NCBI GenBank assembly: GCA_964017185.1
Contig: OZ024875.1
Span: 45,277,986 to 45,341,985, forward strand
From: Rugalucina vietnamica
Taxonomy: Eukaryota; Mollusca; Bivalvia; Lucinida; Lucinidae
Reading direction: 5' to 3'
DNA length: 64,000 bases
The notes below the pieces were generated by a model. That model saw only the letters and a list, made by a program, of their open reading frames with translations. It was not told the origin of the DNA and did not search any database. The stretch's first letter is position 1; the number at the start of each line of letters is the position of its first letter. Shown here piece by piece: positions 5,286-63,596 of this stretch. Position numbers and translations under genes: made by a program.

Positions 5286-5905
5286 TATTAAAAACCCGTG
5301 ACCTGACACATATGTAGAGCATGCTTTACAAAGTGCAGAAAAGTTTCATTAATGGAGAATAGTGAGAATACACATTTATTTTACTTTTAAGCAAACCCAC
5401 GCGTGATTTTCTTTCGGCGAGAACAGCATAATGTAATTGAGAAAAGAAGACTGATTTTTCAGGTATTGATTGTTTTTAAATTAAGCCCTAAATGTACAAA
5501 ATTAATAGCTTGTATGCGATGTTATATACAACCTTGCGGGTTACAAGTGTTTTTGCTTGTTTTTCATATGCGAAAAGTTTGGTTAATCCGTATAAAGTAC
5601 AAAATTGATACCTAATTTTACGTTACATGCCATTTTACATTACGTTCGGAGATATATGCCACATCATGCAAAACCCTACTTTTCACAGTATGCGAAAACG
5701 AAGACGCAATGCGGTAACTGCGCCATCTTATCAGCATCTTTTGCTAGTAGAATCCTTCTTTTTAAATTGCAAATCTGTTAGCAACTTCCGGTCATCTATG
5801 ACTGTACAGACCGACTTTGTATCGGATCTGATCGAAAACCTTTTCGTACAGCTCTTATAACAATGATAACATTTAATGTATTTTGTATTTGTTTTCCTCA
5901 GAAAC
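5286..5905. other. Intergenic / 5' region of GMC gene
   Basis: This holds the sequence upstream of the GMC gene. A pyrimidine-rich tract ending in CAG at about 5899-5901 just before the likely start ATG (5906) looks like a splice acceptor, so a non-coding upstream exon probably exists but could not be located. No other feature is seen. Confidence 0.4.
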
Positions 5906-7711
5906 ATGGTTACAAGCATACAAGGACTTGCGGGCATTTTGTTGGCGGTTGTCATCGGGTATTTGTACTGGGGAACACATTGGACTCCAGCAATCAAAGA
6001 AACAATTAAAAGTGAATATGATTACATTGTCATCGGTGCAGGAACAGCTGGTAGCGTTGTGGCCGCGAGGCTGTCTGAGAACAGAGATTCAACTGTTCTT
6101 CTAATAGAGGCTGGCGATCACTATAATACCAATCAAGCATTTATGATTCCGTTACTTGCGTTTCACAGTGTAGGAAGCAAGTACGACTGGGGTTATCGGA
6201 TCCAGCCGCAAAAGCTCTCCCACCAAGGATCGGTTGGCAACAGCGAACCGTTTCCAGGTGGTAAAGTTCTTGGTGGAACAAATATGATGAACTGTTTGCA
6301 ATATGCTCGTGGATCTAAATATGATTACAACAAATGGGAAGTCAATGGCTGCACAGGTTGGAGTTATAAGGATGTTCTTCCGTACTTCTTGAAATCAGAG
6401 GATATCCAGATTGACCAGCTAAAATCTTCCAAGTATCATCATTCTGGGGGACCTATTGCGGTCAGTAATGGTATAGAGACAAAATTAGGAAAACTATTCT
6501 TAGAAGCCGGGCAAGAAGCCGGTTATGATGTCATTGACTATAATGGTGCAGTAGACGAAGGAATTGGCTATGCCCAGCTAAACACAAGAAAGGGGGTAAG
6601 AAGCGGTTCCAGTAATGAGTTTCTCAACACGGACACGGAACGAGATAATCTAGACATTGCACTAAATACACTTGCTACAAAAGTTGAGATAGACAATATG
6701 AAAGCCACGGGAGTTCATGTTGTGAAAAATCTTAGAAAATATTTCATTAAAGCAAGAAAAGAAATTGTTCTCTCCGCTGGCACTATAGCTTCACCACAGC
6801 TTCTTATGCTAAGTGGAATTGGGTCTAAGAAAGATCTGGAAGACATGGGTATTCCATTTATAGCGGAATTACCAGTTGGATTGAACCTCCAAAATCATTT
6901 GTTGATTCCATTATTTGTGAAGATAAATGAGTCATGTGGTATAACTTTAGATCATGCAACAAGTTTTATTTCAACGATGAAGTATAAACTGTTCGGGACT
7001 GGTCCTTGGTCTTCTACCACAATCGAAGCCACCGGATTCTTCTACACGAAGGAAGAAGATAGAGGTCGCACCTTTCCGGATATTCAACATATATTTTGGA
7101 CACTTCTGCCACATAGCAATACCTTCTTTAATTTTAAGGAAGATATTGCCCGAGAAGTGCTTCCACAAGGCCCAAACGAAAGTGGGTTTTGGACAACGGT
7201 CGCAGTTACGCACCCTAAGAGCACTGGAACTGTTAAACTTAAAACGAAAGATCCGTTTGACCATCCACTTATTGATCCAACATATCTGAGTAACATGGAT
7301 GACGTAGACCGCATGATTGCGGGAATACGAATCTGGGAGAAACTAATGGAGACACCTACTATGAAACGACTTGGAGTTAAGATAGAACAGACTAAAGTGT
7401 CGATATGTTCTCAGCACGAGTTTCGAAGCGATGCGTACTGGGAGTGTTACATGAGGCATGTAACAGTCCACGCTTATCATCCGACTGGCACGTGTAAGAT
7501 GGGAGCTGTCAGAGATCCGTCGGCTGTTGTGGATCCATATTTGCGGGTAAAAGGTATTCAAGGCTTATGAGTTGTTGATGGTTCTGTTATTCCAAATATT
7601 ACAACGGGGAATACAAATGCTCCTATTATGATGATAGCTGAGAAAATATCCGACAATATTCGAGGTATTGATAGTGTGAAGGACATACGAAATAAACTTG
7701 GAACTGGTTAA
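5906..7711 (+). CDS. GMC oxidoreductase (glucose dehydrogenase-like), premature TGA at 7568
   Basis: FAD-dependent glucose-methanol-choline family oxidoreductase; the substrate cannot be told. The start at 5906 directly follows a splice-acceptor-like tract and gives a hydrophobic N-terminal segment ([13 protein letters not shown]), a signal peptide or membrane anchor. Then come the dinucleotide-binding motif ([11 protein letters not shown]), IEAG, the first GMC signature ([12 protein letters not shown]), the second ([17 protein letters not shown]), and the C-terminal active-site block ([12 protein letters not shown]), which contains the usual catalytic His. An in-frame TGA at 7568-7570 replaces the Arg codon (CGA in the neighbouring copies), a typical CpG-to-TpG change. 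The frame stays open beyond it to TAA at 7709-7711, covering [11 protein letters not shown] and the family's second active-site Asn in GNTNAP. Full length would be 601 aa, normal for the family; the truncated form lacks about 47 residues. It may be a young pseudogene, a polymorphic null, a sequencing error, or a readthrough case. AATAAA lies at 7953. Confidence 0.88.
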
Positions 7712-8790: not shown

Positions 8791-9568
8791 GTACGGACAA
8801 AAGCAAGAGCATATTAGACATATGTCTCATAAGCTACTTGACAAAAACTATTCATGCACATTAGGTTTGGACAGCTTGGACATGGACTTGAATCATCGTA
8901 AAGAGTATGGACCGTTATACATCAAATACTTATTCTCTGCTTACCGATTGCATATTTAATTATAAATATGGCATTTCGTTGTCTTAAGTTTTTATTCAAA
9001 GTTAAAAGAAAACAGTTGTCGATACATAGACAGAGGACTAAATTAGTTACATGTGTACGAGTACAGCTGTATATTACGTCACTGTTACAGGCATGTACTA
9101 CATCCACATCACGCAAACGTTTAGATTTTCTCTTCAAACTTTTTACGTGTCATACTGCTTATTTTGTCTCGAGGGAAACATGCCATATAATATTTTGATC
9201 ATATAATATTGTGAAACCAACACCAAGGTTGCTAAATGTGTGTAAATATTTCAATGCTCTGTGCAACGAGATTACTACCTTGATTATTGGAGCAGGAATC
9301 AAGGTGAGTATAAATGTCTTTGAGAATCTTACACGGATATATGCAATAGAAAAGTATTACATTCACTGCTGCGAGTTTCAATTGCATCGATGTATTAATA
9401 ATTGCATTTATGTTGTATCTCGCAATCCTAAAGTGCGTCATTATGATAAAATACAGAAGCAATAATGTTCTTTTACTTCATTTTTAAAGAATGCAGGAAA
9501 CGCGTTGCAGTCGTGCAGCAGACCATTTGTAACGTCTTATGGTTTTGTTTCTATTGTTTCAGTTCAGT
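8791..9568. other. Intergenic between GMC copies
   Basis: No gene is recognised. The pyrimidine tract ending in CAG at about 9562, followed by the ATG at 9569, mirrors the acceptor-plus-start arrangement of the upstream GMC gene. Confidence 0.4.
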
Positions 9569-11392
9569 ATGGTGACGGGAGTCCAAAATTTGATTGGTGT
9601 TCCGCTTGCCTTTGCCATCGGTTATCTTTACTGGGGAGCAGACCAGAAGTCACACACAATCAATGAAACAATAAAAAGTGAATATGATTACATTGTCATC
9701 GGTGCAGAAACTGCGGATTGTGTTGTAGCCTCGAGGCTGTCCGAGGATAGAGATACAACTGTATCTAATAGAGGCTGGTTAGCATTATAATACGAACCCA
9801 GCGTTTATGACACCGCTATTTGCATTCCATGGGGTTGGAAGCAAGTATGACTAAGGTTATAAAATTAAACACCAAAGTTTATCCTTTCTGGGAGCGAAGG
9901 ATAACAGTGTACCTCTGCCAGGAGGCATAGTTCTTGGTGGATCAAATATGATGAACTGTTTGCAATGATGCTCGTGGATCTAAATATGATTATAATGAAT
10001 GGGAAGGTAACGGCTCTCCCTTACTTCTTGAAGTCAGAAGATATCCAGATTGACGAACTGACGTTTTCCAAGTATCACCATTCTGGTTGGCCTATAGCAG
10101 TTAGTAGCGGTAAAGTAACAAAGCTCGGTGAGAGTTTCTTAACAGCGGGGCAAGAAGCTGGCTATAGTATTATTGACTATAATGGTGAGGGTGAAGAGGG
10201 TGTGAGCTATGTTCAGCTTAATACAAGAAAGGGGGTAAGAAGTAGCTCAAGTATATGGTGATGTGGATGAGGGTGTAAGTTATATTCAGCTTAACACAAG
10301 AAAGTGGGTAATAAGTAGCTCAAGTATGGGGTTTTTAAGCGGGCCGCTCTGAGGGACAATCTAGACATTGCAATAAACACTCATGTCACAAAGATTGAAA
10401 TAGAAAACAAGAGGAGGACAGGTGTATTTGTTTTGCGAAGGTTAAGAAAATTATTCATTAAAGCAAGGAAAGAAATCATACTCTCTGTCGGTACTATAGC
10501 ATCACCGCAACTCTTAATGTTGAGCGGGGTGGGTCCAAAAGCGCATCTTGAGGCAATGGGAATTTCACCTAAATCTGACCTTCCAGTGGGCATGAATCTC
10601 CAGAACCATATCCAAATACCACATTTTATGAAGATAAATTCGTCTTACTTTATAGAGATATCGCAGAAAGCCTAATGTCCATGGCGAAATACTACCTATT
10701 TGGAACAGGTCCATGGGCTTCTACGACGGTCGAAGGTAGTGGATGTTTCTACACAAATGATGCCGTGAAAGGACGCACATACCCCGACATAAAATGATGT
10801 TTTGTAATTCTCTACCACATACCAGTGCATATTTTAACTTCAATGATGAAGTAGCTCAGGAGATGTTGTCAGGACTTTGGACAGTAATCTCTCTTACACA
10901 TCTGAAAAGCACAGGGATGATTAAACTGAAAAGCAAGGACCCATTTGACACCATCCAGTAATTGATCCTATGTACCATGATTTGGAGAAGCTTATTGCAG
11001 GAATACGCATCTGGGAGAAAATTATGGAGACTCCATCTATGAAAAGGCTCGGAATAAACATAGAACAATCGAAAGTTTCATTCTGTTCTCAAAATGAATT
11101 TCGCAGTGATTCGTTCTGGCTAGAATGTTATGTAAAGCATCTTACAGTTCATGGATACCATATAACTGGAACGTGTAAAATGGGGTCTGAAAATGACCCT
11201 TCATCTGTTGTTGATCCTAATTTACGAGTGAAAGGGATTGAAGGTCTCCGAGTTGTCGATGGATCAGTAATTCCTAATATTTCAACTGGTAATACGAATG
11301 GGCCTATCATGATGATAGCCGAAAAAATATCTGACAATATTCGAGGGATTGATAGTATAAAGGAAATTCGTGACAACATTGGAACCATATAA
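9569..11392 (+). pseudogene. GMC oxidoreductase pseudogene (tandem copy)
   Basis: This is a full-length but broken duplicate of the gene at 5906-7711. It starts with MVTGVQNLIGV and the same hydrophobic segment, keeps [12 protein letters not shown] (a glycine of the FAD motif replaced by Glu), the second GMC signature ([15 protein letters not shown]) and the intact C-terminal block HGYHITGTCKMG with [12 protein letters not shown] to TAA at 11390. Damage includes a frameshift at about 9765-9775, a TAA at 9852-9854 in place of Trp, an extra base near 9966, a loss of about 30 bases near 10005, a local duplication of about 75 bp at 10195-10330, and a stop at about 10673 with more frameshifts to 10960. 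The retained acceptor-like site upstream shows duplication at DNA level, not retrocopying. Confidence 0.88.
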
Positions 11393-12312: not shown

Positions 12313-13670
12313 CAAATACTGTAACATTCTATGTGATTGCTATTGATCTGGACTTGTTTACAGCTCGGATCCAAGTTTACAGATCCTTCAATATTTGTGC
12401 TATCAGCATATTATAATATCAAAATACATACAAAACTGCCTTGACATATATACACGTGACCTATGTATTATACTAATAAATTGATTGTCCGTACAGGTAC
12501 GGTACATAATTTTTTCAGTTGGAATCAGCCCATGCCCTCGCAACTGAGATCAGTCAATCCATACATTCTATATACAACGAAATGTTTTCTGTTTTCTTAA
12601 ACACAGGTTTTCGCGATATGACATTAGAACGGCAGTGTGTGGGACACAGTTTATAGATTAATGGTTACGTTCTAATTAAAATGTGTGTACCCTTACTTAA
12701 GTTTCGTCTTTCGATAGTAGACTGTAGTAGAAGAAGTTAAAAAAAACCTATGAAAACATAGAATTTTGTAATAAGTAATCGTAGACTAGTTGTGCAGAGC
12801 ACGGAATGGGCAGTTTAAACGATCGATTCTTCCGGAAGTTTCAGCGCTCCTCTTTATAACCCTAATGTCGGATAAACATCTCACTGAAATGAAAACTTAG
12901 CCACAATCCATATATTTTTGATGAAATGAGCCAATAAACAATCCATTTGCAATGTATGTTACGAGACCCGTTCTTGCAAAAAAAAAAATTAAATAAATAA
13001 ATAAATAAAATAAAAAATATCTCAAACTTTAGGACATTACCTGTAAACAATGTATATTGGTATCCCGATCAAGGACAAGTAGCTGTCTATTCCCTGATTA
13101 GGTAAGTAATGCTTTTATTTGCAGAAAGGAACAGAAACGGAAATAATTAATAATGCATTTGGGTGCCTTTAATTCATTCGATATGACCGTTTGGTATGCA
13201 AATTCATCAAAAGCATTATCAAATTAGAACTGCGCAATGCTGTTTGCATGACTGTGACGTCAGAAACTAGGTCAGTCCAAAATGTGTTCAGTAAATGATG
13301 GAAATGATATAGAATTATTGGAGTGGTTGGGGTGGGTCGTAATGACTAGACATTTAAATCAACCGAAAACACGCAATTGGTCAAAATTACTTTTGACTGG
13401 GATGTTAGTGTTTCTGTATTGAAGTTATGTGTCGTAGTATGTTTTGTTGTGTATAGGTATATCTATTCTGGCATTTTGCCGAAACAAAACCACAGCACGT
13501 TGTGATGCTTGGATATGATTGACCAATTAAAACAAATTAAATTAATGATGCAAAAAGCATATTCAAAAACTGCTTTATCTGTGCATATGCTGCAAGCTAT
13601 TATTATACATATTATAGTCTATATATTATAGTCTTATTATATGCTCATTATTGCTACATTTTTCAGATGC
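12313..13670. other. Intergenic / 5' region of CARD/RHIM-like gene 1
   Basis: No gene is seen. An (AAAT)n tract lies at about 12980-13018. A pyrimidine-rich tract ending TTTTTCAG at 13666 is a likely splice acceptor for the single coding exon that follows. Confidence 0.4.
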
Positions 13671-13685
13671 ATGCAGAACGAAAAA

Positions 13686-15149
13686 ATGCCTGAATCAAAA
13701 AGTATATTCATGCGAGAATGTCTTTCAAAGGCCATTCAGTGGAAAAGCCCCGACTTACTCGTTAAAAATGGTAATACTGAGTCTATAGTAACGAGCTTAG
13801 AGGAGCTTTTAGATTTGGACTTGGAAAAACTTCACTGTGGGTATACAGGGCTTGAGTATTTCAATAAACTCGAAGTGATACTTGTTGAAATAAGCAACAA
13901 GGACTTTGATATCATGGAAGCGTGCTTAAATGTGCTTAAAACGTACGTTCCTGGTGAAATTCATGACCTTTGGAAACTATATAAACAATATCTTGGTACT
14001 GACTTTGATAAGATTGTGTGTTTGTGCTGTAAAATACGCAGCCGTGTTGACATTAAGCATTGTAGCATATATCTTTATAGATCCGGAATAGTGTCGGGGC
14101 ACTTGCATACAAAGATTATCTGTAGAAACGCAAGCACAGGGCGTCAGGAGGACTTGTGGAATGAACTGGAAGATGCATGCGATAAGTACCACACACCAAA
14201 GCAAGTTGTTGAGGCTATTTATTGTGGCCTTCAGGCTTATGCTGACCAGTATGGGGCATTGCTAGATGATTACACTTGTCTGCTTAACCAGGAAAATCCA
14301 ACATTCAAGTGTCAATGTCAAGAAACTTTTTCACGTTTGTTTATTCCCAACACTTACAAAGTAGAAACTCGAAACAATGTAATTAATGTGGGTTTTCTGG
14401 AAAAGGAAAATACGATTCCTAAGTTGGAGCAAATAGATAGTGTGAATAGCCGAAAGCACAGCGTCCAACGCAGAACCAGAGGTTCTGGTATCAATGAAAG
14501 GAGACAGGCAAAAGTTAACACATCTGCAAAAGAACCACAAAATCAAGAAACAGTGGTTGCTCAAGATGCTATTGAGTACTTTGGAACAGAATACTCCGAA
14601 AACGAGATTGACAATGACGAAACAGCACTCCAACAACCTATCAGTCAGAAACGGAATCGTTCAAAAGACCGTTCAACAAAATGCAAAATATTTAATTTCT
14701 ACAACAGGGGCAATGTAAATTTTGGTACAAGTGTTGTTCAAATGCGACCAAACACAAAGAATGATGCTCAGGCGGATGATACAGCAACTGATTCTGATAG
14801 TTCGCCAGATGAAAGATTTGCCCTAGCTTCACCAGAATCGTCAGAAGAAAAATTCACAAAAAGGCTGAAATACACCAGAGAGCCATTGGCGGCCATCACA
14901 TATCCGACACATACTGAAGCATCTGATGAAGCTCAACACGTATCATCAACTTCCAATATTGATGAACGAAACGGACGCAAAAACATAAAACAATATGATT
15001 CTGAGCGTAAACGAATCAGATTCAAATCAGAGAGAGTGCAGCACACTGTTCCAGTGCTCATTGAATCTGGTCACTATCAAAATAACAATGAGTTGTACAA
15101 TCGTCCAGGTCGACTACTGCGACAATGCAGTGCTCCTAATGGATTATAA
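13686..15149 (+). CDS. CARD-like / RHIM-like candidate adaptor protein 1
   Basis: I do not recognise a named family. The protein is 487 aa from the ATG at 13686 (an in-frame ATG at 13671 would add five residues), just after the acceptor at 13666, and its coding region is one exon. Residues 10-220 are predicted helical and cysteine-rich, with CLCCK (112-116), KHCS (124-127), CDKYHTPK (165-172) and FKCQCQE (208-214). Residues 105-180 follow the hydrophobic pattern of a CARD/death-fold domain (YLYRSGIVSGHLH, then QEDLWNELED), and residues 10-105 could be a second one. Residues 230-330 are polar and low complexity. Residues 334-353 (FNFYNRGNVNFGTSVVQM) resemble a RHIM, with VNFG in place of the VQIG-type core. 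A second conserved block holds RFALASP and LAAITYP; a basic patch and the tail LLRQCSAPNGL follow. The paralogue at 18927 shares all of these. The function (immune or cell-death adaptor) is inference. Confidence 0.8.
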   Translation: MPESKSIFMRECLSKAIQWKSPDLLVKNGNTESIVTSLEELLDLDLEKLHCGYTGLEYFNKLEVILVEISNKDFDIMEACLNVLKTYVPGEIHDLWKLYKQYLGTDFDKIVCLCCKIRSRVDIKHCSIYLYRSGIVSGHLHTKIICRNASTGRQEDLWNELEDACDKYHTPKQVVEAIYCGLQAYADQYGALLDDYTCLLNQENPTFKCQCQETFSRLFIPNTYKVETRNNVINVGFLEKENTIPKLEQIDSVNSRKHSVQRRTRGSGINERRQAKVNTSAKEPQNQETVVAQDAIEYFGTEYSENEIDNDETALQQPISQKRNRSKDRSTKCKIFNFYNRGNVNFGTSVVQMRPNTKNDAQADDTATDSDSSPDERFALASPESSEEKFTKRLKYTREPLAAITYPTHTEASDEAQHVSSTSNIDERNGRKNIKQYDSERKRIRFKSERVQHTVPVLIESGHYQNNNELYNRPGRLLRQCSAPNGL

Positions 15150-15483
15150 CTCTTATACAGTAGTAACACGAATTCTGTAGACTTACACAAGTGAAATGTT
15201 AACTAGCGCTAAATTTGAACGCGGCATGAGGTAGTATAAATGTGAATTCCTAAAGGAATGCAAAGAAAACTGCTATGCTGCTTAGAAATGGGGACACTGT
15301 CAAATCAAGAATATACAATAATCAAGCAAAATGTTAAACTTGTCGAATTCCATGACAAGTGATGACTGTATAAATGTGTGTTTTGAATGAAATAGCATTT
15401 ATCATGGTTTCATTATAAATATTAAGAAAACTTACAATGTTTTTTTCTTGACGTACAGAGCTCTTACAATCAGTCAGCATGTC

Positions 15484-15716
15484 AGCCAGCACGTGGGAAA
15501 ACCAACAATGTGGTTTCCGAACAGGTCCGACACAAACCGACCTGTACGGTCACAGAAGATGATTAGAAGCAAGAATTTCGTATTTAGGAAGTAGACGGAT
15601 TGCACTATCCGTGTAGCGAAAACAAAGGCGCTGATCAGCTTCGCGTTTACCGAGAAGCTGATCTGCGCCTTTGTTTTCGCCTATGCAGATTATTGGTTTT
15701 CCCATGAGGCGGCTCA
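15484..15716 (-). mobile_element. M1 MITE copy
   Basis: The central palindrome (GAAGCTGATCTGCGCC / GGCGCTGATCAGCTTC) and the end CCATGAGGCGGCTCA identify M1. There are no coding sequences. Confidence 0.75.
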
Positions 15717-16139
15717 TGTGTTCGTATTGTTCAAAGTATGCTCTTGCGTACCACATTAAACTTTAATTTAAAGGCTTAGCTTCTGAAGGAGCTTATTTGG
15801 TACCACTGTTTATTAGATTTATGACCCCTGCTGATGCAATATGGTCCTGAGATCAAAGGTGATTATCTCTGCAGAGGTGAATAAAGAGGCCTATAAAATA
15901 CAATCCCTGTAGTACCAATGTTTATTGGTTTTATGGTCCCTGCATATAACATGTGCAATAAAACTTCATACCTCTGCAATCAGTATTGATTTTTTCCTAT
16001 TTGGCCCGTTCATTGTCAGTCAGTAGGTTTTCTAGTAGTCCTCTCCCTTATCAGCTAATGGCCCCAAATAGATAGAATACAGGTGTTTAAGTACTTTAAA
16101 CGTTTAAAGTACGCATAATGCTGACTTTACGATTGCAAT
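15717..16139. other. Intergenic, nothing recognised
   Basis: Two partly similar sentences of sequence (TTTATTAG../TTTATTGG.. near 15805 and 15925) hint at a small decayed duplication. Nothing else is seen. Confidence 0.35.
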
Positions 16140-16475
16140 TAGAACAAAAGACCCACCCTAAAAACCGAGGTGGGAAACCAGCCAAAATGACACTTAGGCA
16201 CTTCACATAACTTAAAATACAAATAACATCGTAAGCTGGGTGAGCAGCTATTTCTCTATAGGTGGCCACTCAGTTACCCAAACTTAACAAAATATACGAA
16301 AACGCAAATCAATGATGCAAACATAAAAAAAATCGACACCAAAATTTAAAACAAATAGAACCACAACACAAGTACTGCCCAGTTGGAACTGTCAGTAATA
16401 TGAAATTACTTGGGAGCTTAAACCGGTTTTACCGCATCGCAACCTCACCCTTAGTTTCTGCAGTGGATCAAAACA
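16140..16475 (-). repeat. Dispersed repeat R3, inverted copy
   Basis: It matches 17150-17480 and 35050-35465 in reverse complement: GGTGGGAAA, ACTGAGTGGCCACC (read on the minus strand), AAACCGGTTTTACCG and AACCTCACCCTTAG. It is immediately followed by an M2 copy. Confidence 0.65.
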
Positions 16476-16477
16476 CA

Positions 16478-16690
16478 TTACGAAAACTTGTCCGTACAAT
16501 ATACAGATAATTGTTTAAGCATTAATAATTAAAAATTTCGTTGGAAAACGTTTGATAAATTTAATATGTTTGCTCAAAACTACGATAAAAATAAGACAAA
16601 TAAGTCTACCCCTGTAAACCCCAGTTTTGCTATATACATGTAAATGTGGGGTATGAGGGGGTATACTTTTCATGGATGATATAGTTGCTC
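16478..16690. repeat. M2 MITE copy, centre deleted
   Basis: Both M2 ends are present (CGAAAACTTGTCCGTACAAT; terminal hairpin with CCCCTGTAAACCCC and GGGGGTATAC), but the GTGGGTAC/GAACCGCC central palindrome is missing. Confidence 0.6.
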
Positions 16691-17149
16691 AGTCCTCGAG
16701 GTGCTTCTCTAACTAGTTAATGAAACAGCACAATAAACAGATGATATGACGACCGCTGAACTGATACAGAATTGTGGAACAAAACGAAATGTTTCACTAA
16801 TTACATGTACCACTGCACTACAGGTAGATGATCTTGATCGTTGCTTACAAACACAATGTCATGGTTTATCGAAAAGAATAAAGTCCAAGGCGTGACAGGT
16901 TTAAGTGTTATGTATAGATAAAATAGTTTTGTGTTGTCTCTAACACTTTCAGAAGGATTTTTTTTTTCAAACGATTAAGAGGTGTTCGATACTCGAACAT
17001 ATCAATGTCGCAGATCAACGACTTATACATGTTATACACTGAATGGTAGGCCTGTGACAGGGAAACAGGTGAAGGAAGACCATACCATCCGGTGGGCAAG
17101 AGCACGATAGAGTGGTTAAGCTGCGCGCTGTTGAACAAAGATTCACCAC

Positions 17150-17480
17150 GAGGGCCGAACAACTTACTAAAAGTTGTGAGTCCCTGCAGAAGATGAGGGT
17201 GAGGTTAGGCGCCTGTAAAATCGATTTAAGCCCCCCCCCCCCTAATTTTACATTAACGATCATTTCATATTTTTATTTAAGTTCGGGTAACTGAGTGGCC
17301 GCCTATTTTGAAATAGCTGCTCACTCGGCTTACGATATGTTTTCTAAGTATAAGTACCTAATGGTCAATTTTGTTTTTCCAACCTCGGTTTTTGGAGTGG
17401 GAATTTCTTTCTGATTGCACCTCTTCTTGATCATTGCATATTTGTACCTTTTCACAAATACGTCAGACTTAAAGACCTTT
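17150..17480 (+). repeat. Dispersed repeat R3
   Basis: This carries GATGAGGGTGAGGTTAGGC, a poly-C tract at 17230-17242, GTTCGGGTAACTGAGTGG and GGAGTGGGAATTTCTTTCTG, in the same order as 35050-35465. It lies opposite to 16140-16475, so the two form a spaced inverted pair. Confidence 0.7.
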
Positions 17481-17639
17481 TCTTCTTGCAAATTTTTGAG
17501 AATTTAACTAGTGACGTTATGGCATTATAAGTTAATATATATTTGTTTTAACTAATAATTATTAAGATCAAGACAATGTCATTGAAATGCTGTTCCATAG
17601 TTCGGACATTTTCATTCGATAGAGAAGCAAAGTTTCACT

Positions 17640-17730
17640 GCTACAGCATATCAATTTAGACCTACACTGCATTCAATCAGTGCTTTTATTTAGGCCTATA
17701 CACTGCATTCAATCAGTACTTTTTGTGACA
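17640..17730. repeat. Short tandem duplication (~38 bp x 2)
   Basis: CACTGCATTCAATCAGT occurs twice within matching flanks (TTAGACCTA / TTAGGCCTATA), giving a two-copy tandem duplication. Confidence 0.7.
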
Positions 17731-18729
17731 TTGCCAACGGCTCGTCCTCTTAAACAGTTCAGATGTCAAAAATTATATTGGTGTATATAGTATCCGGTAT
17801 CATGTCGTACTACTCATGCATTGTAGATCATTGTATGACCGCGTTAAAAAGGAAGTAAGTAAGTATAACTAGCCTTGACAAAGATCCAGTTTTGATCGAC
17901 CTAAAAGGTTTATATTTATAATACAGTAAAAAGCATAAATGAATTTCGCTTTCTTCATTTTTACCGAAATTGAGAATTTGAAAACTCTGTATTGAACGAT
18001 CAGATATGATCAGTAATACGCACTTTAGATCACTTTATCAAGTACACTGATAAGAACCCTATGGGCTTTTATAAATTGCTTTAAAAATTTACGGAAATTT
18101 ACTTTTTAAAACTAAATAAAAATTGGTTCTAAAGTTGTCTATTTTTTGTTTTAACGAAAACGAGCTGGCGAGCACTTTCTCCAGAGCAGTGCACATTGAT
18201 GAGATCACCACAAGAATTGCAAAAGTAAGCGTGACATTTCGAAGAATCGGTGCAGATGTCTGGTGCGGAAATGGAATAAAGCTTGAACGACGAAACGAAA
18301 AGTGTAAAACTAAACATTTTGATACCGAATGAAGTCTATTGTCAGGAAGTTTCCTGTATGCATTTTGATCTTCATTTGCTTAAGACCAGCAAAAAAGTTT
18401 GAAAATAATTTTATTATGAAATTGTTCTTGTCATTAAACCGCATAAAATCTTTGGATGTCAACTGTACATATTTTTGCAGCCATTGACCAAGTAAGTAGT
18501 AAACAAATGTTTCCAGTTTTTACGCTTTCTTTAATTTAAAAACACTATAAGAATACGAAAGCAGGGTCTGAGTTTTATAAATCTCAGTCATTTTGTCTTT
18601 ACCTTATTATTAAGCAGTATCATTAAGCCCGACGACAATTTTAGGCAAATAAGCAGTTTATGAAATTAGGTCAGTATCCGAAATTCAGTAACTAGGTTAC
18701 TAAAGATTTCATGCATACCCGAGTTTTGC
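17731..18729. other. Intergenic, nothing recognised
   Basis: Short open frames occur on both strands, but none matches anything I recognise. It may contain the 5' UTR exon or promoter of the gene at 18927; no clear site was found. Confidence 0.35.
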
Positions 18730-18785
18730 AATTTAAAAGCGGGGTTTAAGGGGGTATTCATTGCATGGACATGTTTCTGATGTCA
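18730..18785. repeat. M2 MITE terminal fragment
   Basis: It contains AGCGGGGTTTAAGGGGGTAT, CATTGCATGGACATGTTT and CTGATG, the M2 terminal hairpin end. It sits in the putative 5' intron of the following gene. Confidence 0.6.
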
Positions 18786-18926
18786 GCTGACTCTCAGACA
18801 AACCATTTATCTAGCAAATATCTTCACTTGGCGTTGAGTCATATTTTTTTTTCATTGTCACGATTATCTCCCTTGAGGTTATTTGTAGTATTTAAGCTAA
18901 TAATTTGTTCATTTACAGATGCAAGT

Positions 18927-20369
18927 ATGACGGAAGAAACAAACCTTGCATTCACGACAGAATGTCTGTCAAAGGCCATACAGTGGATGAGTCCACACCT
19001 GATCAAACAAATTGATGTAAAACAAACTATCGAAATAGTAGAACAATTACTGGACTTGGAAACCAAAGTGACACCGTTAGGGGCACTTCCAGATGAAGCC
19101 AAGCTTGAAGTAATGCTCATTGAGATAAAATCCAAAGACTTTGAAACCATGGAAAAATGTTTAAATATACTAAACAATTGTGTTCCTAATACAGTAAAGG
19201 ACCTATGGGAGTTATACAATCAATTCATGAATACTGACTTTGACAAGGCCATGTGTTTTTGTTGTAAATTACGGAGCCATGTTGATATAAAACATTGTAG
19301 CAGATATCTTCACATGTACGGCATAATATCTGGACATTTGCACAAGAAAGTCCTATATAGAAATGCAGATATTGGATCTCAAGAAGATTTATGGAATGAT
19401 TTAGAACATGAATGTGACAAATATCACACTCCTAAGCATATAGCTGAGGCTATTAACTATGGTCTTCATGCGCATGCTGATGAGTATGGATTCTTGCTCG
19501 CTGACGCAGACAGTTGGTTCAACAAAGATGGTTCAACTTTCAAGTGCAACTGTCAGGAAACGTGTTCAGAAATGTTCATGCCACAACGATACACATTGAG
19601 GGTTCCAAGCAGATCGCTGTCCATTGACAAATCTCTGAAAGAGAATCTTGAACCGAAGTCATGCCAAAAGTATAGCCTAAGTTACCGTGAAAATGGTAGT
19701 AAACACCAAAGCAGATTCAACACAGAATGTGACAAAGTACAAAAGCAAGCAGAAGCAGAATCGCCTAAAGAGATACGCAAATGCAAGACAGCAGATGCTC
19801 GATATAGGTTAGATGTACTTTATAAACAAGATTCAGTTAAAGAGGAGGGCGAAAAGAAAACAGACACCAAACAGCATACAAATAAAACCAAAGGAAACTA
19901 TTCCGACAAAAATGAACCTTCTACTAACATATACAACTTCTATAACAAAGGACCTGTCAGTTTTGGAACTAATGTTGTTGAGATGAAAAACACTCGAACT
20001 GGAGAGATTTTATCAGATCCTACTAAATTACCTCGTGAAAGAATTGCATTATCTGTTCCACAACCTATAGAATTATGTGCTCAACAGCTGAAATTTAACA
20101 AACCACAATTACCAGCAATTACCTACCCAAAAGATTCAGACATATCTGACGACAATGAATATGAAACCTTATCATCCAATAATGATAGGCAAACGAAAAG
20201 CAAACAACATGATACACCAAAGAAACGTGACCGATATGAATCAGAAATGGTACAAAACACAGATCAGAATTCTGGACACAGTCTTACAGAAAGTAAATAT
20301 GTGTGTGCTGAAAGAAAAACAGGGCGAGGGCATTTGCGGCGACATCTTAGTGCACCGAGTGGTTACTAA
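18927..20369 (+). CDS. CARD-like / RHIM-like candidate adaptor protein 2
   Basis: Paralogue of the gene at 13686, in the same orientation 3.8 kb downstream; 480 aa. The ATG at 18927 is preceded by ATTTACAG (ends 18918), the same acceptor-to-start arrangement as gene 1; an in-frame ATG at 18765 lies upstream of that acceptor and in an M2 relic, so I rejected it. The N-terminal half aligns without large gaps: CLSKAIQW, KDFETMEKCLN, TDFDKAMCFCCKLRS, VDIKHCSRYL, ISGHLHKK, SQEDLWNDLE, CDKYHTPK and FKCNCQETC. Residues 220-330 are Lys/Glu-rich and diverged. Residues 334-353 hold the RHIM-like motif (IYNFYNKGPVSFGTNVVEM), at the same residue numbers as in gene 1. Then follow RIALSVP, LPAITYP, a basic patch (KKRDRYESE) and the tail LRRHLSAPSGY. 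Sharp conservation of islands within a fast-diverging linker indicates selection on both proteins. An adaptor or signalling role is inference. Confidence 0.8.
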   Translation: MTEETNLAFTTECLSKAIQWMSPHLIKQIDVKQTIEIVEQLLDLETKVTPLGALPDEAKLEVMLIEIKSKDFETMEKCLNILNNCVPNTVKDLWELYNQFMNTDFDKAMCFCCKLRSHVDIKHCSRYLHMYGIISGHLHKKVLYRNADIGSQEDLWNDLEHECDKYHTPKHIAEAINYGLHAHADEYGFLLADADSWFNKDGSTFKCNCQETCSEMFMPQRYTLRVPSRSLSIDKSLKENLEPKSCQKYSLSYRENGSKHQSRFNTECDKVQKQAEAESPKEIRKCKTADARYRLDVLYKQDSVKEEGEKKTDTKQHTNKTKGNYSDKNEPSTNIYNFYNKGPVSFGTNVVEMKNTRTGEILSDPTKLPRERIALSVPQPIELCAQQLKFNKPQLPAITYPKDSDISDDNEYETLSSNNDRQTKSKQHDTPKKRDRYESEMVQNTDQNSGHSLTESKYVCAERKTGRGHLRRHLSAPSGY

Positions 20370-41771: not shown

Positions 41772-43892
41772 CCAATCTCAATAAAGTATCTCTGCAAGGA
41801 TGCTCTTTCCTCTTCAATAAAAAGAAACATACCTCAGAAGAAGATCACCTCTAGATGGAATCTTCCCTGGATGACACCAGAAATCAAGAGGCTATGCCGC
41901 AAGAAGAAAAGAGCTTGGGATGCTGGAAGACATAACAGAAACAGCCACTACTGGAAACGCTATCTTAAGCTTAGCAAACTAGTAATAGATACAATCCAGG
42001 AGTCACACAGGACTTATGTCGACAACATCCTAAATGTCAGCATAAACGACAATCCTAAGAAATTCTACTCCTATATGAAGAAGAAGAAATCTGGGCAAAG
42101 CAACATCCCAGTCCTGAAATCTGATGGTAATCTCCTGAGTGAGCCAGCAGAAGTTGCAGAAGCCCTAAATTCTCAATACACCTCGCAGTTCACAAGAGAA
42201 CCAGATGGTCCCCTACCATCCATTAACGGTCAACCAGTACCTTCAATGCCGGACATAGAATTCACTGCCCCAGGCATAGAAAAGCTGCTCCAAAACCTGA
42301 ACCCAGCTAAAGCATCTGGCCCCGATATGGTCCCAGCAAGAATACTGAAACTGGCATCAAAGGAACTTGCACCAGTACTGAGCCTCATATACCAGCAGTC
42401 CTATGACACTGGCCAAGTACCATCCGACTGGCAGAAGGCGAACATCACAGCTGTCTTCAAAAAAGGCGACAAGACCAACCCGGCTAACTACAGACCAGTC
42501 GCATTGACCTGCACAGTCTGTAAATCTATGGAGCATATTATTTACAGCCAAATAATGAATCACCTTGACAGACACAACATTCTCATCGAATTCCAGCATG
42601 GATTCCGAGCCAATCACTCCTGCGAAACACAGTTACTCAACACAGTCGAAGACCTCTCCTGAAGACTTGACAGAAGGAAGACCACGGACTTGCTGATACT
42701 CGATTTCAGCAAAGCCTTTGATACTGTGGCTCACCGAAGACTTCTTCACAAGATCCAACATTATGGAGTCACTGGAAGGACCAACAGATGGATCAGTTCA
42801 TGGCTTTGCGACCGCCAGCAACGAGTTGTCCTTGATGGATCATCTTCATCAGACTCGCCAGTTCTCTCTGGTGTTCCGCAGGGCACTGTGCTGGGTCCAC
42901 TGATGTTTCTCCTGTATGTGAATGACATTGCAGCCAAGGTGTCACCCGAGACCACTGTCAAACTCTTTGCGGACGACTGTCTCGTGTACAGAACCATAGA
43001 ATCTGCCGCCGACTCAATTCAGCTGCAACAAGACCTCGACAGTATGGTGGATTGGTCAAATACCTGGCTTATGAGATTCAATGCCTCCAAATGCCACCTC
43101 CTCAAGATCAAGACCACAAAACAGAAATGCCTACCAACTGTTTACAACATCAAGGGAGTACAGCTACAGGAAGTCGATCATCACCCATACCTCGGTGTTG
43201 AACTCACTGCAGACTTGACCTGGAAAACCCACATCAGCAATATCACCAGCAAAGCAAACAGAATCCTCAACCTGCTACGTCGCCATCTTTACAGCTGCAA
43301 CCAGGAGGTGAAATCCAAAGCCTTCACATCCCTTGCCCGCCCACATCTAGAGTATTCCTCTTCCGTCTGGGACCCTTATCTCAAGCAAGATATTTTGACC
43401 ATCGAAAAAGTCCAGCGTAAGGGTGCCCGCTTCGTTACCGGAAACTACTCATACAGAGATAGTGTCACATCCATGCTGAATGACCTCCAGTGGCCACCTA
43501 TGCAGGATAGACGGAGATCACGAAGACTGACACATCTCTACAAGGCTGTCAACAACCTTTCACCTGTCAAAATCCCGGAATATGTCACACCTTCTTCTGG
43601 CCGCACGAGGACCTATGACCTTGCCTATTATATATACAGCTGAGAACAAACTACGAGCAGTACAAGTACAGCTTCCTGCCCAGAACCATCAGGGATTGGA
43701 ACGCACTACCCCCGGACCTTGTGCACGCCCTATCTGTAGACGAGTTCCAGAGCCGTCTGCAGAAATACACAGCCTAGACAACGCAGCTGCATAATGTTTT
43801 TAATTGTATATACGATGTTTTAACCATGTTGCTGACGCCACTTGCCCGTGATGCTTCGGCCCTGGGCAGTATTAAAGTAGAAGTAGAAGTAT
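41772..43892 (+). mobile_element. 5'-truncated non-LTR retrotransposon (LINE) with reverse transcriptase
   Basis: Coding similarity starts at about 41780 (SIKRNIPQKKITSRWNLPWM, then TPEIKRLCRKKKRAWDAGR), just upstream of the RT domain; the endonuclease domain is missing, so this is a typical 5' truncation. RT blocks are clear: ANITAVFKKGDKTNPANYRP, FQHGFRANHSCETQ, LLILDFSKAFDTVAHRRLL, GVPQGTVLGPLMFLLYVND and the catalytic LFADDCLVY. Two lesions break the frame: TGA at 42661-42663 (usually Arg) and a frameshift at about 43628-43640 inside a TATATA run, after which QLRTNYEQYKYSFLP to YTA is read in another frame, ending TAG at 43775-43777. A short 3' UTR ends in AGTAGAAGTAGAAGTA, a typical tandem tail. 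It resembles jockey/CR1-group LINEs; the element cannot be active. Confidence 0.9.
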
Positions 43893-62926: not shown

Positions 62927-63152
62927 TTTCTAGTTTCTAGCCACTGCCCGTTATTTTCACACTAATTTGCAGGCGAAGACAGTCCACGTACCCTAGCCTC
63001 TGACGGTTCTATGCTCCCCAGTCCTCGGGCTATAAGCAACTTGGTCCACAGGGCGTCGCAACAGGCAAAGTTTGACTACGGGCTCACGCTAATGGTGATG
63101 CAGTACGGGCAATTCACTGACCATGATATCGTCATCACACCTGTAGTCGCAG
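51889..63152 (+). CDS. Secreted animal haem peroxidase, 5' part (continues beyond window)
   Basis: Animal haem peroxidase (peroxidasin/peroxinectin superfamily), predicted secreted; uses hydrogen peroxide to oxidise halides or phenols in the family. Five exons with matching phases: 51889-52030, 52529-52627, 52833-53004, 62223-62434, 62973-63152 (805 nt, 268 aa so far). Residues 1-25 are a signal peptide (VIVLVVTTCLAHQILAQ). A low-complexity propeptide holds two similar units, GGGLTVSQMQSLQHGN and GGGLTASQQQLKNHGN, on separate exons. The catalytic domain begins with CDVTARFRTADGTCNN, LFNPLWGS and RFLPPAYQNGEDSPR, then LPSPRAISNLVH and LTLMVMQYGQFTDHDIVITP, which carries the haem-linked Asp and distal His of the family. 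The remainder (proximal His, C-terminus) must lie past 64000; no further exon is visible after 63152. Intron 3 is 9.2 kb and full of repeats. Confidence 0.93.
52130..52345. repeat. Cluster of ACCATGGT-like palindromes
   Basis: CCATGG or one-mismatch forms occur about a dozen times (GACCATGGTC, GTACCATGGTAG, CAACCATGGTCATG). It lies in peroxidase intron 1, without a regular period. Confidence 0.8.
52529..52627 (+). CDS. Peroxidase exon 2
   Basis: Encodes DAGGGLTVSQMQSLQHGNRL to SGQ. Acceptor TTTTAG; donor GTCTGT (weak), chosen because it restores phase into exon 3. Confidence 0.82.
52833..53004 (+). CDS. Peroxidase exon 3
   Basis: Encodes AAGARPEVTGFGAFAPSEGG to TGRAFRAL. Acceptor TTCAAG, donor GTAAGT. 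Confidence 0.88.
53217..53268. repeat. (ATTT)n microsatellite
   Basis: About 13 TTTA units. Confidence 0.95.
53285..53342 (-). repeat. M2 MITE fragment, left of pearl-like insertion
   Basis: GCAAACGTGTCCATGTAATG then CATTTTACCCCACTTTTT; M2 stops exactly at its hairpin apex and resumes at 55033. Confidence 0.72.
53343..55030 (+). mobile_element. Pearl-like element with ~165-bp tandem array, inserted in M2
   Basis: Head palindrome AGCTCACCTGAGCC gaa GGCTCACAGGTGAGCT, then a GTCC/CCGTCGTCC run (53395-53450), then eight copies of a ~165-bp unit (marker TCTCTGAAAC at 53631, 53821, 53986, 54156, 54321, 54485, 54650, 54815). It closes with CTCTCAGGTGAGCT near 55008. The 165-bp unit is unrelated in most of its length to the 463-bp unit but shares head, tail and GGAC-type run. 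Confidence 0.83.
55033..55245 (-). repeat. M2 MITE fragment, right of pearl-like insertion
   Basis: Resumes with TATAGTAAAACTTGGATCTA, GGGGTATACCTATTTTT and the CATAGATTGTGGGTACCCAC centre, ending near the TTCGTAATCGTGATG end. Confidence 0.72.
55318..55395 (-). repeat. M2 MITE terminal fragment
   Basis: ATCAGGATAACATTTTCATG, ACCCCATTTTTATATAGAAA apex, then sequence diverges. Confidence 0.6.
55400..57079. other. Peroxidase intron 3, no named feature
   Basis: No exon-like frame fits the peroxidase. AAGTAAGTAAGTAATGG at 56026-56042 may be the tail of another LINE fragment on the minus strand. Confidence 0.35.
57080..57160 (+). repeat. LINE 3'-end fragment with (CTTA)n tail
   Basis: GTTTAGAGGGCCTCGGGGAA, CCAATCGAGCTACCCTCTAT, AAATAAAGAAATTACTTACT then ACTT repeats. 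Same block order as 32208-32297 (inverse). Confidence 0.6.
57303..57600 (-). mobile_element. M2 MITE copy with poly(A) at hairpin apex
   Basis: ATCAGGATAACATGTCCGTG, AAATCCCACTTTTTGAT then a run of about 20 A at the apex, TAGAACCGACTCAGCGTAGC centre, GCATGGGCAAGTTTTCG end. Confidence 0.78.
57867..58735. repeat. 438-bp tandem duplication with nested palindromes
   Basis: Two head-to-tail units (57867-58304, 58305-58735). Each has a ~30-bp stem (TTCATGGAGCTATGAACCGC... and its inverse GCGGTTCATAGCTCC...) enclosing a smaller palindrome GAACCCCGAAGGGGTTC, plus GTTCATGGAAGTATGAAC near the end. Unit 1 has a ~10-bp repeat of AATGAACCCC that unit 2 lacks. Confidence 0.9.
58736..60029. other. Peroxidase intron 3, no named feature
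   Basis: A 75-codon plus-strand frame at 59472-59699 has no recognisable family. A poly-C tract with CCACCCC lies at 59803-59829. Confidence 0.35.
60173..60617. mobile_element. MITE with ~33-bp inverted ends
   Basis: TATACTTATTCGCAAAAGAA ACG...AAAAAAAT at the left is mirrored by ATTTTTTTCGCGTTTC and TTTTGCGGATAAGTATA at the right. TA borders suggest a TA duplication, as in Tc1/mariner-type MITEs (inference). Confidence 0.75.
60795..60945. repeat. Dispersed repeat R5, fragment
   Basis: CTCTTTGGCTCCATGTTGCC, AAAGGGTCACTGATGAG and CACTGCTCTTAAAGGATCTC match 26435-26570. Confidence 0.7.
61650..62222. other. Peroxidase intron 3, no named feature
   Basis: No feature is recognised. It includes the polypyrimidine/acceptor region of exon 4. 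Confidence 0.35.
62223..62434 (+). CDS. Peroxidase exon 4
   Basis: Encodes SGMSSAQILGSAAASQ..., CRPVLTCDVTARFRTADG, NPLWGS and LPPAYQNG. Acceptor ACTTACAG, donor GTAGGT; the first base completes the Leu codon from exon 3. Confidence 0.94.
62875..62924. repeat. (GT)n microsatellite
   Basis: About 25 GT units, 48 bp upstream of peroxidase exon 5. Confidence 0.96.
62973..63152 (+). CDS. Peroxidase exon 5 (distal His)
   Basis: Encodes EDSPRTLASDGSMLPSPRAI through MQYGQFTDHDIVITPVVAG. Acceptor TTTGCAG, donor GTAAAT. Confidence 0.95.
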
Positions 63153-63596
63153 GTAAATGCAGTTTGATCATTTTGGGATGCTGCTGTAACGTAAATAACT
63201 CTAGTCCACGTGTTCTAATGGTCTTTTTTCTCTCTTTGCATAATCTGTATACATATATCAGGATAAATTTCTAATGGGAAATAATCTAATGCATAAATAA
63301 CTACTTTCTACCAGGGCGATGCACAAAGTTCTGAAATTTTGAAAGGAAGGATGATTTCCTTTGGAAACTCACATCATTTCAAAACAGAACTTCCTGCAAA
63401 TCCACGTCGGATTTTTCTTATAAACTGTATTTTAAAGGCATCTACAATGAGCATTTAGTGCCAGTCCCACTGAATCGTAAGCAATCGTACGATTGTGAAA
63501 TCATTAGTTTTGTGATAAGACGCGCATGCAAATTATGTAAAATGTTTTCCAACAAGGAAATGACCCCCAAATTCAACAAATTTTTGATCATATGGA
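63153..63596. other. Peroxidase intron 5, no named feature
   Basis: I searched for the next peroxidase exon by eye and found none. Confidence 0.4.

Follow-up and report, generated by a model that had tools for sequence, protein, structure and literature searches.

Two tandem genes of a lucinid bivalve encode probable double-CARD proteins with a RHIM-like C-terminal island

A conserved pair of tandem genes

We analysed a stretch of 64,000 nucleotides from the lucinid bivalve Rugalucina vietnamica (assembly GCA_964017185.1, contig OZ024875.1, positions 45,277,986 to 45,341,985; hereafter the window), in which two adjacent genes on the plus strand, A and B, encode proteins of 487 and 480 amino acids (aa). 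Each protein very probably carries two CARD-type domains at its N-terminus and has, further on, a conserved island that resembles the RHIM, an amyloid-forming motif of cell-death signalling. An initial annotation, made from the letters alone, had described such a pair, and both frames, about 3.8 kb apart, were confirmed (Table 1). The proteins align over nearly their full length (BLASTP; 198 of 491 aligned positions identical, or 40%; E 7e-114). As that annotation had it, a conserved N-terminal part (residues 1-225, 54-55% identical) is followed by a polar, fast-diverging linker (20% identity, about alignment columns 227-326) and then by three islands: first the RHIM-like island, next a stretch around AITYP, and finally a C-terminal SAPxG.

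Between A and B, the proportion of synonymous differences (pS) is 0.72, near saturation, while that of non-synonymous differences (pN) is held down to 0.35, which shows that the frames code under constraint. By region, pN is lowest, at 0.21, over about residues 104-225; it reaches 0.34 both at about residues 1-103 and in the island region, and 0.50 in the linker. The two frames, intact and under purifying selection, are constrained most tightly in domain 2.

Between the two genes (window 16134-17419) are nested inverted repeats with arms of 44, 84 and 63 nucleotides, the kind of trace expected from a palindromic mobile element.

A multi-locus family

Searching the genome (1.09 Gb, 47 contigs) with the domains of A and of two other loci, L006 and L003, as queries, we found at least ten family loci, A and B included; for large families, counts from such a search are lower bounds. 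The initial annotation had proposed a lineage-specific adaptor family, and what stands of this is a multi-locus family in this genome. In a tree of nine two-domain rows, rooted at the midpoint and built without the partial L020, A and B group together (98/98) and are joined by L003 (96/95). L007, L003 and L019 form long branches whose placement is unsure.

The family also bears on exon structure. A single coding exon, as first annotated for both genes, is likely for A but may not hold for B. Judged by eye, nine of the ten loci share the acceptor phase (two bases, then the frame), the exception being A, and no in-frame ATG lies between the acceptor and the first CARD in L003, L004, L005, L006 or L007, so that a coding exon further upstream seems to be required in these five. 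B, too, may have one.

Two probable CARD-type domains

One or two death folds had been proposed for the N-terminus, and paralogue matches together with structure comparison now support two, very probably of the CARD type. Five of the ten loci (L004, L006, L016, L019 and L020) exceed the Pfam CARD cut-off (PF00619, 23.9 bits) in domain 1, with 25.2-28.6 bits; L005 reaches 20.3 bits, under the cut-off. Across much of both domains, A and B share homology with these Pfam-matching paralogues, and domain 1 of the pair can therefore be assigned to the CARDs by homology.

Structure comparison points the same way. In an AlphaFold2 (AF2) model, residues 102-202 of A form six helices with moderate confidence (best predicted local distance difference test score, pLDDT, 73), and the leading Protein Data Bank (PDB) matches of this domain 2 model were CARDs in both Foldseek and VIA. 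The whole-protein model is of low confidence (pLDDT 45); CARDs still lead for the domain 1 part, residues 1-98 and 2-102 of A matching the MDA5 CARD and the Apaf-1/caspase-9 CARD complex. The structure prediction and fold search proposed with the initial annotation gave a CARD fold for domain 2, but for domain 1 only within this low-confidence model.

Is another small helical bundle conceivable, with the Pfam matches of the paralogues being spurious? A and B themselves, like L003 and L007, do not match Pfam CARD, which weighs against the CARD assignment of the pair, and the low pLDDT of the whole model fits such a bundle as well. Sequence-only searches of A and B in Pfam and PDB returned nothing of value. 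A nine-row profile of domain 1 retrieved the CARDs of ICEBERG (E 0.04), NOL3 (0.068) and caspase-9 (0.55) from PDB without significance; unrelated entries came up with similar E-values, and a designed protein with E 0.0035. We nevertheless consider this explanation very improbable: five loci exceed a curated CARD cut-off, and the two domains separately pick out CARDs.

Matches of domain 1 of B to a BBS7 hairpin, RIH-associated and TPR_18 (E 0.0006-0.011, all under the Pfam cut-offs) were rejected, since the same domain exceeds the CARD cut-off in the paralogues. Domain 2 as an internal duplicate of domain 1 was not supported (trimmed profile-profile probability 0.7%).

Domain 2 is framed by cysteines. 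Three of them are invariant in nine of nine aligned rows, namely the first of a CxxC where the domain starts and the two of a CxC following the domain; the second CxxC position is cysteine in eight rows and histidine in L003. A metal site is the simplest reading of these invariant residues, and the chances appear evenly balanced that the CxxC/H...CxC set is a zinc clasp stapling the ends of the second CARD. The zinc-bound CARD of CARD9 (PDB 6e25) came first in both Foldseek searches, at 13-15% identity and as a match of fold.

The C-terminal island and the RHIM question

The island, IFNFYNRGNVNFGTSVVQM in A and IYNFYNKGPVSFGTNVVEM in B, stands out against the 20%-identical linker. When the C-terminal region of B is compared with that of L003, a locus on a different contig, the best ungapped 16-mer falls within the island (KGPV..GT in common) and its score is equalled by 2 of 500 shuffles. 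The same comparison for A again places the best 16-mer within the island (17 of 500 shuffles). Gapped alignments, which cover longer stretches, are equalled by 1 of 300 (B/L003) and 4 of 300 (A/L003) shuffles. Being shared with L003 beyond shuffles, the island is probably under selection. To the eye, the island of L007, KINIINPAQVNFESSR, is similar in pattern; the best 16-mers of A/L007 and B/L007 fall outside it (223 and 400 of 500 shuffles), and the gapped L003/L007 alignment is significant (2 of 300 shuffles) but does not pair the islands.

Is the island a RHIM? Its core tetrads are VNFG (A), VSFG (B), VNVG (L003) and VNFE (L007). Several observations weigh against the assignment. Relative to the RHIM tetrad I/V-Q-V/I-G, V is kept in all four cores, G in three and Q in none, N or S replacing it in A and B. 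Pfam RHIM (PF12721, cut-off 20 bits) matched neither A nor B nor their island pieces, and a whole-genome RHIM search with E up to 10 listed eight places, none of them the A or B island. A position-specific scoring matrix (PSSM) built from two RHIM exons of the host genome and three human RHIMs did not score above shuffles (573 of 2000 equal for A, 504 of 2000 for B), with the island as the best window in both proteins. Nor did matrices made from the host RHIMs alone (1178 and 1784 of 2000 for A and B) or from the human RHIMs alone (640 and 367 of 2000); with either, the best window of A falls outside the island. The PSSM result was negative for all three profile choices and all seven C-terminal regions tried. 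The Pfam-positive RHIM exon, that of L025, likewise matched no RHIM structure in PDB, so that an absent PDB match says little about RHIMs.

The initial annotation had spoken of RHIM-like proteins; the conserved island bears this out, while membership of the RHIM family was not shown. The likeness to a RHIM is suggestive, and whether the island makes a RHIM-type contact is, on sequence and analogy, a question that we put just short of even. RHIM-type partners probably exist, since the same genome holds the two RHIM exons, at L025 and L026. That of L026 lies about 1.7 kb upstream of an uninterrupted frame of 1610 aa (L036:1827-6656, C7, near 31.90 Mb) whose sole Pfam match is a sub-threshold Schlafen AlbA_2 and which looks SAMD9-like to us.

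The failure of the Pfam and PSSM tests also favours a different explanation, in which A and B are tandem-CARD regulators (decoys or co-scaffolds) and the island is an ordinary short linear motif docking an unrelated partner. Its best argument, and a further point against a RHIM-based role, comes from the paralogues: in L005, L006 and L016, the gene apparently finishes with a short second exon (splicing inferred) that lacks the island, so that the CARD pair seems functional without it and would be the essential part. In their C-terminal parts, L004, L016 and L019 are not significantly similar to A or B, and ICEBERG, which matches the domain 1 profile weakly, is a CARD-only inhibitor. On the other hand, the island retains the V and G that cryptic RHIMs have, as well as N-rich hydrophobic flanks, and of the two RHIM exons in the genome one lies above and one below the Pfam cut-off. 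We regard the linear motif as a tentative alternative that is somewhat improbable. The short island-free second exons suggest a division of the family into scaffold-only and island-bearing members.

Comparison with known systems

Proteins with both a CARD and a RHIM are likely a bivalve type known to databases. The protein BiIV1_006R (GenBank PQ846775) of bivalve iridovirus 1, a cockle virus, which has an orthologue in BiIV2, is annotated in PMC12452177 as CARD plus RHIM, similar to bivalve sequences and a horizontal-transfer candidate. Compared by description only, it is like A and B in combining a CARD with a RHIM or RHIM-like element; it resembles bivalve proteins by the similarity stated there. 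A and B very probably have two CARDs, and their island is not proven to be a RHIM. Given this mention, their architecture is not wholly undescribed, and the initial annotation was right in this respect only in part; searches of the open-licence PMC literature turned up no description of the host proteins themselves. Scanning viral and prokaryotic collections with the proteins of the window confirmed no relative.

The insect protein IMD pairs a cryptic RHIM with a death domain, itself a death-fold domain. In mosquito, the cryptic RHIM of IMD and PGRP-LE is reported to have a VHIG core, in which V and G are the positions conserved, and thioflavin T stained cells that expressed these proteins (PMC9531809). 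The cryptic-RHIM system of IMD, PGRP-LC and PGRP-LE is, as described there, like A and B in having a core that lacks Q and keeps V and G, and offers a precedent for the island. Unlike IMD, A and B have a CARD pair, and no profile link between their islands and the insect motifs was shown.

Where RIPK1 and RIPK3 have a RHIM towards the C-terminus, A and B have a RHIM-like motif; they differ in the core (VNFG/VSFG against I/V-Q-V/I-G) and in the kinase domain, for which their frames gave no Pfam match with E up to 10. To our knowledge, none of RIPK1, RIPK3, TRIF and ZBP1 has a CARD. One review lists these four as the conserved mammalian RHIM proteins (PMC9950082). A VQFG tetrad occurs naturally in RIPK3, RIPK1 carries a death domain, and the zebra mussel has a RIPK1 homologue with a RHIM, according to PMC12119088.

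Two CARDs in series at the N-terminus are also found in RIG-I and MDA5, and NOD2 has tandem CARDs there. A and B differ from these in their additional CxxC/H...CxC frame and RHIM-like tail, and their frames, which end in stop codons, contain no Pfam match to a helicase or NACHT domain. In another explanation, the CARDs derive from RIG-I-like receptors (RLRs), an antiviral signalling piece having split from an RLR with the tail as a by-product; we think this improbable.

Proposed role

Our best reading places A and B in a family of tandem-CARD adaptors in which one branch has a degenerate RHIM-like tail. A signalling adaptor role is fairly likely. The fuller proposal puts both proteins in the cytosol as tandem-CARD adaptors (scaffolds) that act in innate immune or cell-death signalling, with the island as a RHIM-type contact; we hold it as likely to be right as wrong. 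An upstream CARD partner, either a sensor or a caspase, would nucleate the two CARDs into a helical assembly and so concentrate the C-terminal islands, which could bind one another or a canonical RHIM protein through a cryptic-RHIM-type beta or amyloid contact and thereby activate NF-kB or death. Zinc bound by the CxxC/H...CxC set would staple the ends of the second CARD. The data support the parts list of this mechanism and its conservation only; we infer the adaptor function and the amyloid formation.

If the proposal is true, filament-type and amyloid-type signalling are joinable in one adaptor. Bivalve immunology would gain a concrete candidate for a pathway, and the viral CARD+RHIM gene a possible relative in the host. 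An extended version seems to us unlikely: lineage-specific, zinc-clasped tandem-CARD adaptors would include a branch that couples the nucleation of CARD filaments to a RHIM amyloid lacking Q within a single molecule, would so wire CARD sensing directly into RHIM signalling, and would have been captured by bivalve iridoviruses as a decoy.

Table 1. Coordinates of the gene pair, its domains and motifs, and related loci (window positions unless a locus or contig is named)
Feature	Position	Strand	Remarks
Gene A coding frame	13686-15149	+	487 aa, then stop; alternative in-frame ATG at 13671
Likely splice acceptor AG, A coding exon	13665-13666	+	read directly: ...tttttcag
A domain 1	13698-13991	+	residues ~5-102; probable CARD, by homology
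A domain 2	13998-14285	+	residues ~105-200; CARD fold in AF2 model
A CxxC (C112, C115)	14019-14030	+	start of domain 2
A CxC (C209, C211)	14310-14318	+	after domain 2
A RHIM-like island	14688-14744	+	IFNFYNRGNVNFGTSVVQM; core VNFG
Gene B coding frame	18927-20369	+	480 aa, then stop; start may sit in an exon further upstream
Likely splice acceptor AG, B coding exon	18917-18918	+	read directly
B domain 1	18936-19226	+	probable CARD, by homology; aligned with paralogues above Pfam CARD cut-off
B domain 2	19233-19520	+	probable CARD fold, via 62% identity to the modelled stretch of A
B CxCC (CxxC position)	19254-19265	+	start of domain 2
B CxC	19545-19553	+	after domain 2
B RHIM-like island	19929-19985	+	IYNFYNKGPVSFGTNVVEM; core VSFG
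L007	C7:45264342		27 kb upstream of A
L005, L006	C7, 30.0 and 30.8 Mb
L004, L020	C7, 64.67 and 64.62 Mb		L020 partial
L003	C15
L016	C5
L019	C3
Putative second exon of L005	L008:1455-1739		shared; VEFH-P-like pattern in tail
Putative second exon of L006	L009:1422-1601		shared; VEFH-P-like pattern in tail
Putative second exon of L016	L038:7777-8136		shared; VEFH-P-like pattern in tail
RHIM exon of L025	L025:1432-1689; C14:20121231		NVQVG core; above Pfam cut-off
RHIM exon of L026	L026:1366-1614		GIQIG core; 17.3-18.5 bits, below Pfam cut-off

Other features of the window

Two tandem GMC oxidoreductase genes lie between L007 and A (5870-7567 and 9533-11389); the frame of the first stops before the end of the profile, and the second is spread over several frames, through introns or damage. 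Further downstream, a reverse transcriptase, presumably of a long interspersed nuclear element (LINE)-like kind, occupies two adjacent open frames at 41772-43640 (Pfam RVT_1 in 42663-43640; GC content of the stretch 0.475), and an animal haem peroxidase exon is found at 62966-63271 (Pfam An_peroxidase, E 3.6e-11).

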